From Nonomuraea soli (GTDB lineage: Bacteria; Actinomycetota; Actinomycetes; Streptosporangiales; Streptosporangiaceae), in assembly GCF_013761175.1 (NCBI RefSeq), contig NZ_JACDUR010000007.1:124001-188000 (forward strand): a DNA stretch of 64,000 bases, written 5' to 3'. Numbering within the stretch: position 1 is the stretch's first letter; every line of letters starts with the position of its first letter. The position numbers and the translations under genes were made by a program. The notes under the pieces were generated by a model. It had not been told where the DNA came from. It worked only from the letters and a program-made list of their open reading frames with translations, and did no database searches. Of this stretch, positions 32,197 through 35,506 are shown in pieces.

Positions 32197-32943
32197 ATGC
32201 TCATCGCATCCGCGCCGAACCTGCGTGACCTGGGCGGACACCGCACCACCGACGGACGCAAGGTCCGCACGGGGATCGGTTTCCGCTCCGGCGCGCTCAA
32301 CGTGCTGACCCCGGACGAACAGCAGCAGCTGCTCGCCGCCGGAGTCAGGCTCGTCTGCGACCTGCGCACCGACAAGGAACGCGAGGACGGCCCCGACCTG
32401 CTCCCTGAAGGCGTCGAGTACAGAGTGCTCGACGTGCAGCGCCACGGCGGCCACGGAGCCGACATCGCCGCCCTGTTCGCCGCGCCGGAGCAGGCCGAGG
32501 CGCTGCGTTCGCCGCAGTCGGCCGAACGGTTCCTCACCGAGGTCTACCGCGCCTTCGTCACCACCTCCGACGCCCACGAGGCCTACCGCGACCTGCTCCG
32601 AGCGTTGCGGCGGCCAGGCACGCTGATGCACTGCACGGCGGGCAAGGACCGCACCGGCTGGGGGACGGCCGTCCTGCTCTCCCTGCTCGGGGTGGACCGC
32701 GACACGATCATGACCGACTACCTGGAGAGCAACGTGCACCTGAGCGGCCCCTACGGCCCGCTCATCGCCCTGGCGCCCGACCCCGAGGTGATCCGCCCGC
32801 TGCTGGAGGTGCGCGAGGTCTACCTCCAGGCCGCCTTCGACACCGCCGAGCAGCACTACGGCGGCCTGGAGGGATACGCGCGCCAGGCGCTGGAGCTCAC
32901 GGAGGACGACCTGGCCGCCCTCCGCGAGCTCTACCTGCACTAG
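32197..32943 (+). CDS. tyrosine-protein phosphatase, DSP-like (Y_phosphatase3 type)
   Basis: A 248-residue phosphatase. N-terminal NLRDLGGHRTTDGRKVRTGIGFRSG is typical of the MptpB/LipA family, and the active-site P-loop is HCTAGKDRTG (Cys nucleophile, Arg). Cytosolic; it may act on phosphotyrosine or phosphoinositides. GATACT lies 9 bases before the ATG and no ribosome-binding site is visible, so a leaderless transcript is likely. Its stop overlaps the convergent secDF end by 4 bases. Confidence 0.9.
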   Translation: MLIASAPNLRDLGGHRTTDGRKVRTGIGFRSGALNVLTPDEQQQLLAAGVRLVCDLRTDKEREDGPDLLPEGVEYRVLDVQRHGGHGADIAALFAAPEQAEALRSPQSAERFLTEVYRAFVTTSDAHEAYRDLLRALRRPGTLMHCTAGKDRTGWGTAVLLSLLGVDRDTIMTDYLESNVHLSGPYGPLIALAPDPEVIRPLLEVREVYLQAAFDTAEQHYGGLEGYARQALELTEDDLAALRELYLH

Positions 32944-35102
32944 ACGACGGCTCCCGGCCGGATCCTCTCCTTCTGTACGGCGGGCGGAGGAGTCCGGTCG
33001 CGCCCTTCCAGCTCGACGGCCAGCGGCCCCGCCACGAAGCACGACGACAACGTGCCCGTGACGATGCCGATGAGCAGCGCGAGCGCGAAGTCACGCAACG
33101 AGTCGCCTCCCAGCAGCGCCAGCGCCACCAGGATGAACAGCGCCCCCAGCCCGGTGTTCACCGTGCGCGGCACGGTCTGCAGGATCGCCCTGTTGACCGT
33201 GCGCTGGAAGGGCGCCGCGCCCACCCACAGCTCGCGCACCCGGTCGAAGACCACGACCTTGTCGTTGACGGAGTAGCCGACGACGGTGAGCATCGCGGCC
33301 AGGAAGACGCCGTCGATCGGCTTGCCCAGCCAGGCGAAGGCGCCGACGACGATCGCGGCGTCGACGAAGAGCGCCGCCACGGCCGCGGCGCCGAACGTCC
33401 ACCGGAAACGCAGCGCCAGGTAGACGAGCTGCGCCGCCAGCGCCATGGCGAGCGCGATGACGGCGTTGCGCCGCAGTTCCTCGCCGAGTGAGGGTCCGAT
33501 CAGCTCGTCGCGGACCACGGGCCCGAGCACCTCGCCGATCCTGGCGGCGTCGTCGCCGGAGATCTGCCCGGTCCGCACCGCGATGCGCCCTTCTGAGGCC
33601 TGGACGACCGCCGAGGGAAAGCCCGCTTCGCCGACGGCCTGCCGGGCCGCGTCGACCCCCATCGTGGAGGAGAACTCCATGACCCGGCCGCCGGTGAACT
33701 CCACGCCGAAGTCGAGCCCCCGGACGGCCAGCCCGGCGAAGGCCACCACCAGCAGCCCGCCCGCGACGGCCAGCCAGAGCCTGCCGCGGCGCATGACGAA
33801 CGGGTCGCGCTCGGTCAGCCAGGTCCGCAGCCTGCCCACCGAGCCCAGCCCCGACAGCCGGGCGGGCATGCGCCCGATCGTCCACTGGGTGAGCACGCGA
33901 GTGATGAGCAACGCCGACACCAGCGAGGCCAGCACGCCGATGGAGAGCGTCACGCCGAAGCCCTTGACCGGTCCCGACGCCAGCCAGAACAGGAGCCCGG
34001 CCGAGAGCAGCGTGGTCACATTGGAGTCGGCGATGGCGCTCCAGGCCTTCTTGAAGCCGAGGTCGAGCGCCGGCCGCAGGGAGCCGCGATACTCCTCCCT
34101 GGCCCGCTCGAAGACCAGCACGTTGGCGTCGACGGCCATGCCGATCGCCAGCACGAACCCGGCCAGCCCCGGCAGGGTGAGCGTCGCGCCGACCGCGATC
34201 AGCGCCGCGTAGGCGATCAGCCCGTAGCAGGCCAGCGCCAGCGCGGCCAGCAGGCCCACGAGCCGGTAGACGAGCACGATGAACAGCCCGGTGGCCAGCA
34301 CGCCGATGACGGCCGCCTGCCAGCTCGCCTCGATGGCCGCGGCGCCGAGCGTCGGGCCGACGACCCGCTGCTCGACGATCTCCAGCGGCACCGGCAGCGC
34401 GCCGCCCTTGATCAGCACGGCCAGGTTCTGCGCCTCCTCGGCGGTGAAGCGCCCGCTGATCGTGGTCGATCCGCCCTGCTGGCCGGCCTTGCAGGGGGTG
34501 TCGTCGCCGACGACGGGGGAGGAGATGACCTTCCCGTCGAGCACGATCGCCACCCGCCGCGCCGGGTCGTCGTAGGGCCGGCAGGCCGCCTCGCCGGTGA
34601 GGCGCTGCCACGGACCGGGTTCCGCGAAGGCGACGTCGACGAACCAGCCAGGTCCGCGCTGGGGGTCGGTGCGGGCGACGGCGTCGGTGACCCCGTCACC
34701 CGAGATGACCGCGGGACCGGTCGTCAGCGGCTGCCCACTCTCGTCGGTGAGCTGCTGACCCTCCGGGCCCGCTGACGCCAGCACGGGGTGGAACGACAGC
34801 TGGGCGGTGCGCCCCATGACCGCGGCCGCCTCGCGCGGGTCGAGCACGCCGGGCAGCTCGACGATGATGCGCGCGTCGCCGGAGCGCACCAGGGTGGGTT
34901 CGGCCACGCCGAGCCCGTTGGCCCGCCGTTCGAGCACGTCGCGGGCGCGGTCGACGGCTTCGGGTGAGGCCTCGCCCTGGGCCTCGAAGACGATCTGGGT
35001 GCCGCCGCGCAGGTCGAGGCCGAGACGCGGGGCCATGGTGAATGCCAGGAACAACGAAGAAACGATGACGGCAAGGGCCGCCACCGCACGCCAAACAGGC
35101 AT
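32940..35102 (-). CDS. secDF: fused protein-export membrane protein SecDF
   Basis: A 720-residue RND-type membrane protein that uses the proton gradient to help preprotein leave the Sec channel. SecD half: helix 1, LGLDLRGGTQIVFEA, large P1 domain, then GLAGFVLAIGMAVDANVLVFERAREE. SecF half: GLDFGVEFTGGRVMEF, later VGYSVNDKVVVFDRVREL. Actinomycetes usually carry separate secD and secF, so this fused copy is probably an accessory set (knowledge-based inference). ATG 35102 follows GGAGG at 35115-35111. A small exported protein with an RAPP end and a hairpin lie directly upstream. Confidence 0.93.
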   Translation of the reverse strand: MPVWRAVAALAVIVSSLFLAFTMAPRLGLDLRGGTQIVFEAQGEASPEAVDRARDVLERRANGLGVAEPTLVRSGDARIIVELPGVLDPREAAAVMGRTAQLSFHPVLASAGPEGQQLTDESGQPLTTGPAVISGDGVTDAVARTDPQRGPGWFVDVAFAEPGPWQRLTGEAACRPYDDPARRVAIVLDGKVISSPVVGDDTPCKAGQQGGSTTISGRFTAEEAQNLAVLIKGGALPVPLEIVEQRVVGPTLGAAAIEASWQAAVIGVLATGLFIVLVYRLVGLLAALALACYGLIAYAALIAVGATLTLPGLAGFVLAIGMAVDANVLVFERAREEYRGSLRPALDLGFKKAWSAIADSNVTTLLSAGLLFWLASGPVKGFGVTLSIGVLASLVSALLITRVLTQWTIGRMPARLSGLGSVGRLRTWLTERDPFVMRRGRLWLAVAGGLLVVAFAGLAVRGLDFGVEFTGGRVMEFSSTMGVDAARQAVGEAGFPSAVVQASEGRIAVRTGQISGDDAARIGEVLGPVVRDELIGPSLGEELRRNAVIALAMALAAQLVYLALRFRWTFGAAAVAALFVDAAIVVGAFAWLGKPIDGVFLAAMLTVVGYSVNDKVVVFDRVRELWVGAAPFQRTVNRAILQTVPRTVNTGLGALFILVALALLGGDSLRDFALALLIGIVTGTLSSCFVAGPLAVELEGRDRTPPPAVQKERIRPGAVV

Positions 35103-35119
35103 GCGGACTACCTCCACAT

Positions 35120-35149
35120 ACGAAATCGAAAAATATGGTCAGATTTCGT
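35120..35149 (-). promoter_or_regulatory. RNA hairpin between the RAPP peptide and secDF
   Basis: On the minus strand ACGAAATC pairs perfectly with GATTTCGT around a 14-base loop. The 5' arm lies in the last three codons of the upstream peptide gene; the 3' arm ends 4 bases before the secDF ribosome-binding site GGAGG. A ribosome stalled at RAPP would cover the 5' arm. Confidence 0.6.
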
Positions 35150-35468
35150 GAGTGGCGGGAGGAGCGCGGGCCGAAACTCCCCGCGGAGAGGCGCCCGGTG
35201 TGAAATCCGTGGCTTCTGCCGTACCGGCAAGGAACCGGCCGCCCGCGCTCGCGGCCGGGGTGACGGACGGCACGGCCAGGCCGGAGGCGTGGCCGTGCGA
35301 CGGCGCGGAGACCCGCGGGGTGACCGGGGCGGGACTGCCCGCCTGGTGCTGCGCCGGGCAGTCGAGGACGGCGGCGCTCTGCACGACGGTGACAGGCGCC
35401 CGCACGCCGGTCACCAGGAAGATCGAGGACAGCAGAAGGACCAGCGCCGCGGGCAGTCTGATCCTCAC
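35139..35468 (-). CDS. small exported protein ending in RAPP, candidate arrest peptide controlling secDF
   Basis: A 109-residue protein from GTG 35468 (GGTGA upstream). Residues 5-24 are a hydrophobic signal or anchor (LPAALVLLLSSIFLVTGVRA). The rest is Ala/Pro/Ser-rich and probably unfolded. Residues 101-104 are RAPP, five codons before the stop. RAPP motifs stall ribosomes in known arrest peptides that monitor Sec/YidC insertion (RAPP-type arrest peptides; compare Vibrio VemP-SecDF2). It lies 36 bases before secDF with the hairpin 35120-35149 between. Gene reality is inferred from position and coupling; the function is a hypothesis. Confidence 0.7.
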   Translation of the reverse strand: MRIRLPAALVLLLSSIFLVTGVRAPVTVVQSAAVLDCPAQHQAGSPAPVTPRVSAPSHGHASGLAVPSVTPAASAGGRFLAGTAEATDFTPGASPRGVSARAPPATHEI

Positions 35469-35506
35469 GCGTTCACCGTAGCCTGGTTCGGGGTAGCGGT
35501 GGCGCC

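Follow-up and report, generated by a model that had tools for sequence, protein, structure and literature searches.

Export-linked arrest peptides and ApdA

ApdA is the closest described class of arrest peptide to the one considered here. Stalling, toeprints and a cryo-EM structure have been reported for other members, which arrest with the third residue of the motif in the P-site (available text of PMC7897499 and PMC10951233), and Streptosporangiales and Streptomycetales are among the orders that yielded the 398 published ApdA sequences (available text of PMC7897499, PMC10987492 and PMC10951233). The locus studied in the ApdA papers is that of Amycolatopsis japonica. Streptomyces lividans has an apdA-secDF2 locus and, besides it, RAPP uORFs at copper and thioredoxin-like genes (PMC12992588). 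In the accessible part of PMC7897499, structure prediction gave the discoverers no hairpin able to hide the downstream ribosome-binding site, and they proposed a mechanism other than SD sequestration. In SecM-secA and MifM-yidC2, arrest of a ribosome close to the end of the upstream ORF (uORF) holds open a stem that would otherwise hide the SD of an export gene (available portions of PMC10987492 and PMC13183943), while in CliM-yidC2 of Clostridia the stem spans the uORF 3' end and the start site of the next gene, and its disruption leads to high constitutive expression (PMC13183943). In Alteromonas, secDF2 is preceded by a RAPP-like uORF (uDF_RQH_Enterobacterales), and a stem-loop there masks part of the SD; this stem-loop was examined with a reporter and stem mutations (PMC10987492, available text). 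In Vibrio, VemP is a secretion monitor upstream of secD2/F2.

The locus described here lies in a 64,000-nucleotide stretch of Nonomuraea soli DNA, which we call the window. As in ApdA, a small exported protein with a C-terminal RAPP, and with its signal far from the arrest site, directly precedes a second fused secDF; unlike published ApdA, the locus has a predicted SD-sequestering structure whose counterpart covaries in relatives, none being reported in the available text of PMC7897499, PMC10987492 and PMC10951233. The stem logic is that of SecM and MifM, but peptides and targets differ, as SecM ends in RAGP and MifM has another arrest sequence; CliM likewise arrests by another sequence, and its target is a YidC. 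The Alteromonas system is gammaproteobacterial and was put apart from ApdA by its authors, and the accessible text of PMC10987492 does not mention covariation. VemP, which the original prediction had named as the precedent, holds as an analogue with no homology claimed, and its arrest element differs by its published description; SecM, MifM, CliM and the Alteromonas uORF are nearer precedents.

The apdA-secDF2 locus

32940..35102, minus strand: secDF2, fused SecD-SecF, 720 aa, ATG start at 35102-35100, with Pfam and NCBIfam matches
35139..35468, minus strand: apdA, exported arrest-peptide ORF, 109 aa, GTG start, ending RAPP-ATHEI-stop
35157..35168, minus strand: RAPP codons CGC GCT CCT CCC (R101-A102-P103-P104), read from the sequence

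Profile searches of secDF2 returned the Pfam domains SecD_1st, SecDF_P1_head, SecD_SecF_C and Sec_GG and the NCBIfam family NF009583. On contig C6 the genome has another two SecD/SecF-type ORFs side by side, and the fused gene behind apdA is, judged by sequence, its second secDF. Shortly after the start of secDF2, at 35087-35062 of the minus strand, lie three overlapping terminator-like matches (shuffles average 0.3).

The apdA ORF runs from a GTG (35468-35466) to a stop codon at 35141-35139, 36 nt before the secDF2 ATG. It had been predicted as a small ORF with an N-terminal export signal and with RAPP at residues 101-104, five codons ahead of the stop; coordinates and residues are confirmed, the five codons encoding A, T, H, E and I, and the N-terminus contains the hydrophobic stretch VRIRLPAALVLLLSSIFLVTG (best 15-residue Kyte-Doolittle mean 2.59, starting at residue 5). 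This stretch ends at about residue 21, more than 40 residues from the predicted arrest at residue 103, where P103 (35162-35160) would occupy the P-site and P104 (35159-35157) the A-site, a position taken from other members (PMC7897499, PMC10951233, available text). Pfam and NCBIfam searches with the peptide gave no match at E 0.1. By its sequence, apdA fits the published ApdA class of arrest peptides upstream of actinobacterial secDF, with a uORF directly before a secondary secDF, a hydrophobic N-terminus and a RAPP end common to its homologues.

A leaderless apdA start was considered as a family trait and rejected: the window (TACGGT, 6 nt, GTG) and locus L006 look leaderless, yet this holds for just 19 of 196 loci (out-of-frame controls, 0.002 per codon).

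A predicted stem over the secDF2 SD

35152..35158, minus strand: CC-G-CCAC, SD-covering part of the anti-SD arm, beginning within the A-site codon and running into the next codons (predicted fold)
35142..35149, minus strand: upper 5' arm ACGAAATC, 5' side of the 8-bp hairpin (sequence and predicted fold)
35128..35141, minus strand: 14-nt loop TGACCATATTTTTC, containing the apdA stop codon (sequence and predicted fold)
35120..35127, minus strand: upper 3' arm GATTTCGT, 3' side of the 8-bp hairpin (sequence and predicted fold)
35111..35117, minus strand: sequestered secDF2 SD region GTGGAGG, GTGG and GG paired, A mismatched (predicted fold)

The original prediction had described a perfect 8-bp hairpin at 35120-35149, and its arms are exact (ACGAAATC at 35149-35142 and GATTTCGT at 35127-35120). 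The 5' arm begins after 7 bases past the A-site codon, at nt +8 to +15, and the 3' arm ends 4 bases ahead of the SD GGAGG (35115-35111), both as proposed. Taken alone, this hairpin is only mildly unlikely: when the 49 nt downstream were shuffled by mononucleotide, 7 of 100 shuffles gave a helix just as good. None of the 249 other loci searched has it, both matches being the window's own locus. The hairpin tops a longer stem in which a 2x2 internal loop is followed by CCAC/GTGG, one mismatch and CC/GG, covering the SD; in the predicted fold, the pairs that hide the SD are thus CCAC/GTGG and CC/GG, below the 8-bp helix. The whole stem has a predicted energy of -16.9 kcal/mol compared to -6.6 for the 8-bp part, and the 93-nt region folds with a z of -3.5, matched by 0 of 200 shuffles. 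CC-G-CCAC at 35152..35158 is the window counterpart of the arm that covaries in relatives, and the GTGGAGG region is its SD-side partner.

RAPP conservation and covariation with the SD

The related loci comprised 231 with a located SecDF2 start, excluding L083, the own-genome pieces L001-L004, L005 (no usable match) and L227 (no match). The RAPP end had been expected to be conserved in orthologues, and it is: an R[AG]PP uORF tail is present in 201 of 231 loci (RAPP 169, RGPP 32); reversed sequences, used as a control under looser placement, gave 13 of 231. Some RGPP tails (e.g. L126, L127, L134) may be chance picks and were kept in these counts. From 209 loci with a RAPP-like uORF, three were removed by eye (L204, L213, L225) and 17 more had no recognisable SD, which left 189 loci, 172 of them unique (95 from the first set and 77 from a later-fetched set drawn from L116-L238; the two sets have genera in common and are not separate in lineage). 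The congeneric loci L107 and L093 match Nonomuraea loci L011 and L012 exactly in the apdA-secDF2 region.

Across the loci compared, bases from the last RAPP codon or just behind it are complementary to the secDF2 SD region. In duplex energy, a locus's own SD beats the SDs of other loci when the pairing segment begins between -12 and +6 relative to the end of RAPP, the largest advantage being -3.63 kcal/mol (s.e. 0.29) at a start of -3; elsewhere in the ORFs there is little or no advantage, and 12-30 nt behind RAPP the own SD is slightly worse, by up to 1.1 kcal/mol. In a register-free test that required contact with the SD region, the contiguous helix score was 7.47 for native pairs compared to 5.73 (sd 0.098) for 2000 permutations of the 172 loci, and a score of at least 7 was reached by 121 of 172 native loci compared to 26% of swaps. 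Scores fell below 5.5 in 36 of 172 loci, among them the window, which scores just 4 bp because its stem is interrupted, and the score of L012, kept as it stood, was lowered because the script picked a different RAPP frame. This scoring and a tighter anchor were adopted because a first anchored register (excess at pairs 1-4, none at 5-6), since discarded, had latched onto TCC triplets that occur by chance after the stop codon.

Such a pattern might arise as a by-product of common ancestry and GC-rich composition, as related loci have both arms in common, independent changes per column on the tree are few, and the two sets of loci overlap in lineage. Column-wise independent-pair tests had too few events on the tree for significance; a tree-based null took their place (110 loci with a full SecDF2, 89 of these with the TCC anchor). 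At the first three pairs beyond UCC:GGA, 78, 79 and 71 of 89 loci are Watson-Crick compared to 51, 52 and 25 expected, levels reached in 1, 0 and 0 of 2000 runs, while pairs 4 and 5 show no excess in the 89 loci (412 and 723 of 2000). The helix excess recurs in the 77 later-fetched loci (6.86 versus 5.13; 0 of 5000 permutations) and with one locus per SecDF-tree cluster (28 clusters; 7.75 versus 5.93; 0 of 5000). Permutation within eight clades (77 loci) gave 8.16 versus 7.72 (0 of 2000), and weakened in finer clades, where 32 and then 1320 of 2000 reached the native value. Arm and SD flank change together as TCCACAG/CTGTGGA, CTCCAAC/GTTGGAG, CTCACG/CGTGAG, CTCCGGCA/TGCCGGAG and CTCCAGCA/TGCTGGAG. 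One of the seven same-branch double changes breaks its pair (A:T to C:A). The tree-based null, the one-per-cluster and coarse within-clade permutations, and the scarcity of pairing elsewhere in the same ORFs all favour real pairing, which makes a by-product of ancestry and composition highly improbable.

The inverted repeat might instead be a transcriptional element, either an attenuator or an operator read as DNA, a reading to which the terminator-like matches at 35087-35062 lend some colour. None of them coincides with the repeat, an operator would be expected to keep near-fixed spacing whereas arm and SD are separated by loops of 26-356 nt (133 loci with a helix of at least 6), and an Rfam search found no match. 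The helix excess over other loci's SDs also counts against a transcriptional role, which we hold to be very improbable; SD overlap itself is not independent evidence, because the test scored only helices that touch the SD region. In the predicted folds, the window stem is a local variant of the SD-overlapping helix kept in relatives at and behind RAPP. The expectation that hairpin and peptide co-vary therefore stands in many loci for this helix, and fails for the 8-bp hairpin, which among the loci compared is unique to the window locus.

A stalled ribosome and predicted SD opening

A stalled ribosome was assumed to cover -3 to +10 of the RAPP end. This footprint contains 89% of the paired 5'-arm bases (133 loci with a helix of at least 6). 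In predicted folds of 165 loci (7 of the 172 were left out for length or truncation), more than half of the SD region is paired with the arm in 110, and the median cost of opening the SD is 10.1 kcal/mol for free RNA, 9.2 with a ribosome 20 nt upstream and 6.1 with the stalled ribosome; with the arm shuffled, the medians are 7.0 and 6.4 kcal/mol. At the window, masking the stalled footprint lowers the SD-opening energy from 9.0 to 6.1 kcal/mol, but the mean SD unpaired probability goes from 0.23 to 0.13 because a weaker fold takes over. Of the eight bases of the named 5' arm, only three fall within the assumed footprint, and it is the predicted lower stem that covers the SD.

Frames, families and other possible couplings

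ApdA might stall and yet be coupled to secDF2 otherwise, by termination-reinitiation, mRNA stability or ribosome queueing, in which case the complementarity would be a side effect of a conserved RAPP-ST tail and SD flank. The suggestion of a distinct mechanism by its discoverers (PMC7897499, available text) agrees with this, as does the near restriction of the TCCAC arm to one frame (frame 0 in 62 of 67 loci). However, three loci carry the arm in frame 1 and two in frame 2, where it encodes other tail peptides (LHR and SPQV versus STGF), arm and SD flank change jointly, and pairing holds across the whole range of loop lengths. The scored loci of families f19 and f26 have RAPP or RGPP uORFs and lack the anti-SD arm, as this alternative would allow (helix of at least 6 in 0 of 10 and 0 of 2; f28, 1 of 3). 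On balance, a coupling of another kind is unlikely, and SD unmasking by the stalled ribosome is preferred.

A substitute hairpin behind RAPP in f19 and f26 was considered and rejected: L078, L222, L224, L226, L187, L195 and L197 have helices that 0-6 of 100 shuffles reach, and the other 18 of 25 rows have none as uncommon. L078 and L224 have the same sequence.

The same RNA switch was sought in ApdP of alphaproteobacteria, where 9 scored loci gave no significant covariation (native 5.06 versus swap 4.74; 1042 of 5000 permutations attained the native value). These came from 12 plasmid loci (L239-L250), 10 of them with a RAPP/RGPP uORF; L250 had no fixed start, and in L240 and L249 no RAPP/RGPP uORF passed the filter.

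A model for secDF2 control

The reading of this locus as an arrest peptide and hairpin before secDF is supported, with a conserved RAPP end in a class already published as ApdA. The window locus is very probably a SecM-type switch that joins an ApdA arrest peptide to an SD-sequestering RNA stem. RAPP conservation, localised complementarity, covariation and position inside the presumed footprint form its computed basis, and from these we infer stalling of the window peptide, its force-dependent release and its effect on SecDF2 synthesis. When secDF2 is not needed, the chain would be exported, the pull would relieve the RAPP stall, and the ribosome would complete apdA and depart, whereupon bases of the last RAPP codon and those that follow immediately would pair with the secDF2 SD and damp initiation. 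When Sec export is slow, the ribosome would remain stalled at RAP|P with the arm bases within its mRNA channel, which would leave the SD free and secDF2 translated. As the arm would pair with the SD unless a ribosome is stalled, the codons behind RAPP may thus serve mainly as RNA.

To conclude, the new part appears to be the SD-hiding RNA pairing with its covariation in the ApdA class, the peptide class itself being already published. ApdA is well studied by stalling assays, toeprinting and cryo-EM, yet how arrest controls secDF2 was left open in the literature. Two short arms 26-356 nt apart emerge only by comparison of loci, which suggests why folding one sequence at a time could overlook switches of this kind. 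Codons at the RAPP stall and after it probably have a dual use: they would form an anti-SD that evolves fast and in step with the SD flank of secDF2 in Nonomuraea and its relatives, Actinomadura and Streptomyces. ApdA would thus be an SD-unmasking switch supported by covariation, and other families of actinobacteria would have kept the RAPP peptide and lost or replaced the RNA half. If true, this would overturn the published suggestion that ApdA acts without SD sequestration. In many loci the covarying arm would explain in concrete terms, down to defined bases, how the switch works, and evolution has already supplied compensatory changes.

The apdA-secDF2 pair and its relatives

ApdA was discovered by Sakiyama et al. 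(2021; PMC7897499), and the class was widened to 398 sequences by Fujiwara et al. (2024; PMC10987492). One of seven RAPP/RGPP arrest peptides tested is a Streptomyces lividans ApdA homologue (PMC12992588). In the window, the upstream ORF apdA precedes a fused secDF gene:

35468 to 35139, minus strand: apdA, 109 codons from GTG to stop, read from the sequence
35102-35100, minus strand: ATG, preferred start of secDF2, with GGAGG upstream at 35115-35111

The apdA product starts with a hydrophobic signal, is rich in Ala, Pro and Ser in its middle part and terminates in ARAPPATHEI. These are the features of ApdA, which makes the peptide a further member of the published class; the ORF has no match in Pfam or NCBIfam at E 0.1. 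The downstream product is SecDF by Pfam and NCBIfam matches, and since two adjacent SecD/SecF-type ORFs lie elsewhere in the genome on another contig, the window's gene represents a second set, secDF2. The apdA stop and the secDF2 ATG are 36 nt apart. An ORF-finder listing starts secDF2 at GTG 35117, which is disfavoured as this codon falls inside the Shine-Dalgarno (SD) sequence itself. In this region the sequences of two loci from the same genus, L107 and L093, exactly match those of the named Nonomuraea loci L011 and L012, from which the genome is inferred to be a Nonomuraea.

Six nucleotides 5' of the apdA GTG lies TACGGT (35475-35480, minus strand), which resembles the pattern of leaderless actinobacterial genes; L006 has TATGGT at matching spacing, and such an element occurs in only 19 of 196 loci. 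In the predicted fold, a second hairpin, CCGCATGCC/GGCGTGCGG (35084-35106, minus strand), surrounds the secDF2 start codon and may merely reflect conserved coding sequence. Three overlapping terminator-like hits just within secDF2 (35062-35087, minus strand; shuffles average 0.3) are probably coding sequence, a role in attenuation being less likely.

The SecDF2 loci compared come from three sources: named genomes, where 80 of 582 relatives were retained; further genomes belonging to the family, where 98 of 150 gave a match; and class-level genomes, where 99 of 394 gave a match at E 1e-120 and 123 at E 1e-60. Another 100 upstream regions were fetched in addition. The set does not include the Amycolatopsis locus of the original ApdA papers. 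A SecDF2 start could be placed in 231 loci, 201 of which have an upstream ORF ending near RAPP (169) or RGPP (32); an RxPP tail is absent upstream of SecDF2 in 22 of the 231. Among the SecDF2 relatives without such a tail are L184, L186, L188, L192 and L198-L201, mostly of family f26. At E 1e-60, SecDF2 went unmatched in one genome of the window's genus (G141; 11.3 Mb, completeness 100), and part of the genus may therefore lack the pair.

A covarying arm complementary to the SD

Comparison of the RAPP-to-secDF2 sequences between loci revealed that bases at and just behind the last RAPP codon, here called the anti-SD arm, mirror the SD.

Arm and SD pairs in individual loci
TCCACAG / CTGTGGA
TCCACG / CGTGGA
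CCTCCGGCA / TGCCGGAGG
CCTCCAGCA / TGCTGGAGG
CTCCAAC / GTTGGAG (L046)
CTCCTGCGG / CCGCAGGAG (L124)
CTCACG / CGTGAG (where the SD is GAGAGG)

In an 18-nt scan, pairing with the locus's own SD exceeded pairing with the SDs of other loci for windows whose first base lies between -12 and +6 relative to the end of RAPP, with a peak at -3, whereas windows farther behind paired slightly worse with their own SD than with swapped ones. The longest contiguous helix averaged 7.47 in 172 unique loci versus 5.73 after permutation, and 6.86 versus 5.13 (0/5000) in 77 loci fetched after the pattern was noticed, whose lineages overlap the first set. In this later set, a helix of at least 6 was found in 31/41 f1, 15/19 f18, 1/2 f9, 1/3 f28, 0/10 f19 and 0/2 f26 loci.

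Because these permutations ignore ancestry, a SecDF tree was built (FastTree, 110 loci). With one locus for each of 28 tree clusters the excess persists (7.75 versus 5.93, 0/5000), as it does under permutation within 8 clades (77 loci; 8.16 versus 7.72, 0/2000); finer clades gave 32/2000 and the finest, where arms barely differ, 1320/2000. A tree-based null that holds each column to as many changes as were observed there leaves a clear excess at three variable pairs adjoining UCC:GGA, and none at pairs 4 and 5. Among seven double changes that fall on single branches, six preserve the pairing (C:G to G:C or A:T to G:C, for example) and one disrupts it. Each column offers 1-6 independent pairs, too few for a sign test to reach significance.

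By the stall site published for other ApdA members (PMC7897499, PMC10951233), residues behind RAPP lie outside the stalled chain. Of the loci with a TCCAC arm, 62 have it in frame 0 and 3 and 2 have it in the two other frames, so that the tails differ (STGF, LHR, SPQV); the loop between the arms ranges from 26 to 356 nt. Both kinds of variation agree more closely with an RNA stem than with a DNA operator or a conserved peptide at the tail.

The arm is absent from all 10 scored f19 loci, a family that includes Haloactinopolyspora (L210, the same as L082), and from both scored f26 loci; many f26 loci combine a short RAPP/RGPP tail with the lack of a recognisable SD. Across the loci without the arm, no element was seen to take its place consistently. 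Some single loci among them (L078, L222, L224, L226, L187) have a strong hairpin of 7-14 bp behind RAPP, such as CTGGACAG/CTGTCCAG in L226, with its 3' arm distant from the SD. In nine scored loci of the alphaproteobacterial ApdP the helix averaged 5.06, versus 4.74 with swapped SDs, a level reached in 1042/5000 permutations.

The presumed stall footprint and the window's own predicted stem

If a stalled ribosome covers 10 nt past the A-site codon, as in general toeprinting practice, 89% of paired arm bases fall within the footprint (133 loci with a helix of at least 6). Masking the footprint lowers the median predicted SD opening cost from 10.1 to 6.1 kcal/mol (shuffled arm, 7.0 to 6.4), and with a ribosome placed 20 nt upstream the cost is still 9.2 kcal/mol. 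The cost drops by at least 5 in 58 of 165 loci and in 2 with shuffled arms, and the mean unpaired probability of the SD region, 0.13 before masking, is 0.38 after it (0.29 and 0.36 with the arm shuffled).

In the window, the consensus CTCCAC/GTGGAG is remodelled, and CC-G-CCAC is predicted to pair with GTGG-A-GG across the SD, followed by a 2x2 internal loop and then a perfect 8-bp helix (35149-35142/35127-35120). The original prediction took this helix to be the regulatory hairpin; it does exist, but as the upper part of a larger stem (-16.9 kcal/mol for the whole stem, -6.6 for the helix alone), and it recurs in none of 249 other loci. The tree neighbour L095 likewise folds over its SD with different letters, GGCTCGC/GCGAGCC running into the SD. 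As to the further proposal, that a ribosome stalled at RAP|P holds the helix open, the assumed footprint ends at about 35147, over CCAC and only the first three upper-arm bases, so that the SD-covering pairs would be unable to form. Masking the footprint brings the cost of opening this SD down from 9.0 to 6.1 kcal/mol, but the unpaired probability goes from 0.23 to 0.13, staying low because the SD finds a weaker predicted partner within the former loop.

To conclude, the proposal of an arrest-peptide switch for Sec export was right in kind, and the window's apdA-secDF2 is a putative switch of this type. SD unmasking is already described for SecM, MifM, CliM and an Alteromonas uORF (PMC10987492, PMC13183943). 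For ApdA, structure prediction had given no hairpin able to hide the downstream ribosome-binding site (PMC7897499), and a search of main texts in the open-licence PMC literature (including PMC10987492, PMC12992588 and PMC13183943) turned up no subsequent description of a structure that hides the SD. The anti-SD arm that is conserved and covaries in ApdA loci appears not to have been described before and goes against that negative result; the peptide class and the unmasking principle are themselves known.
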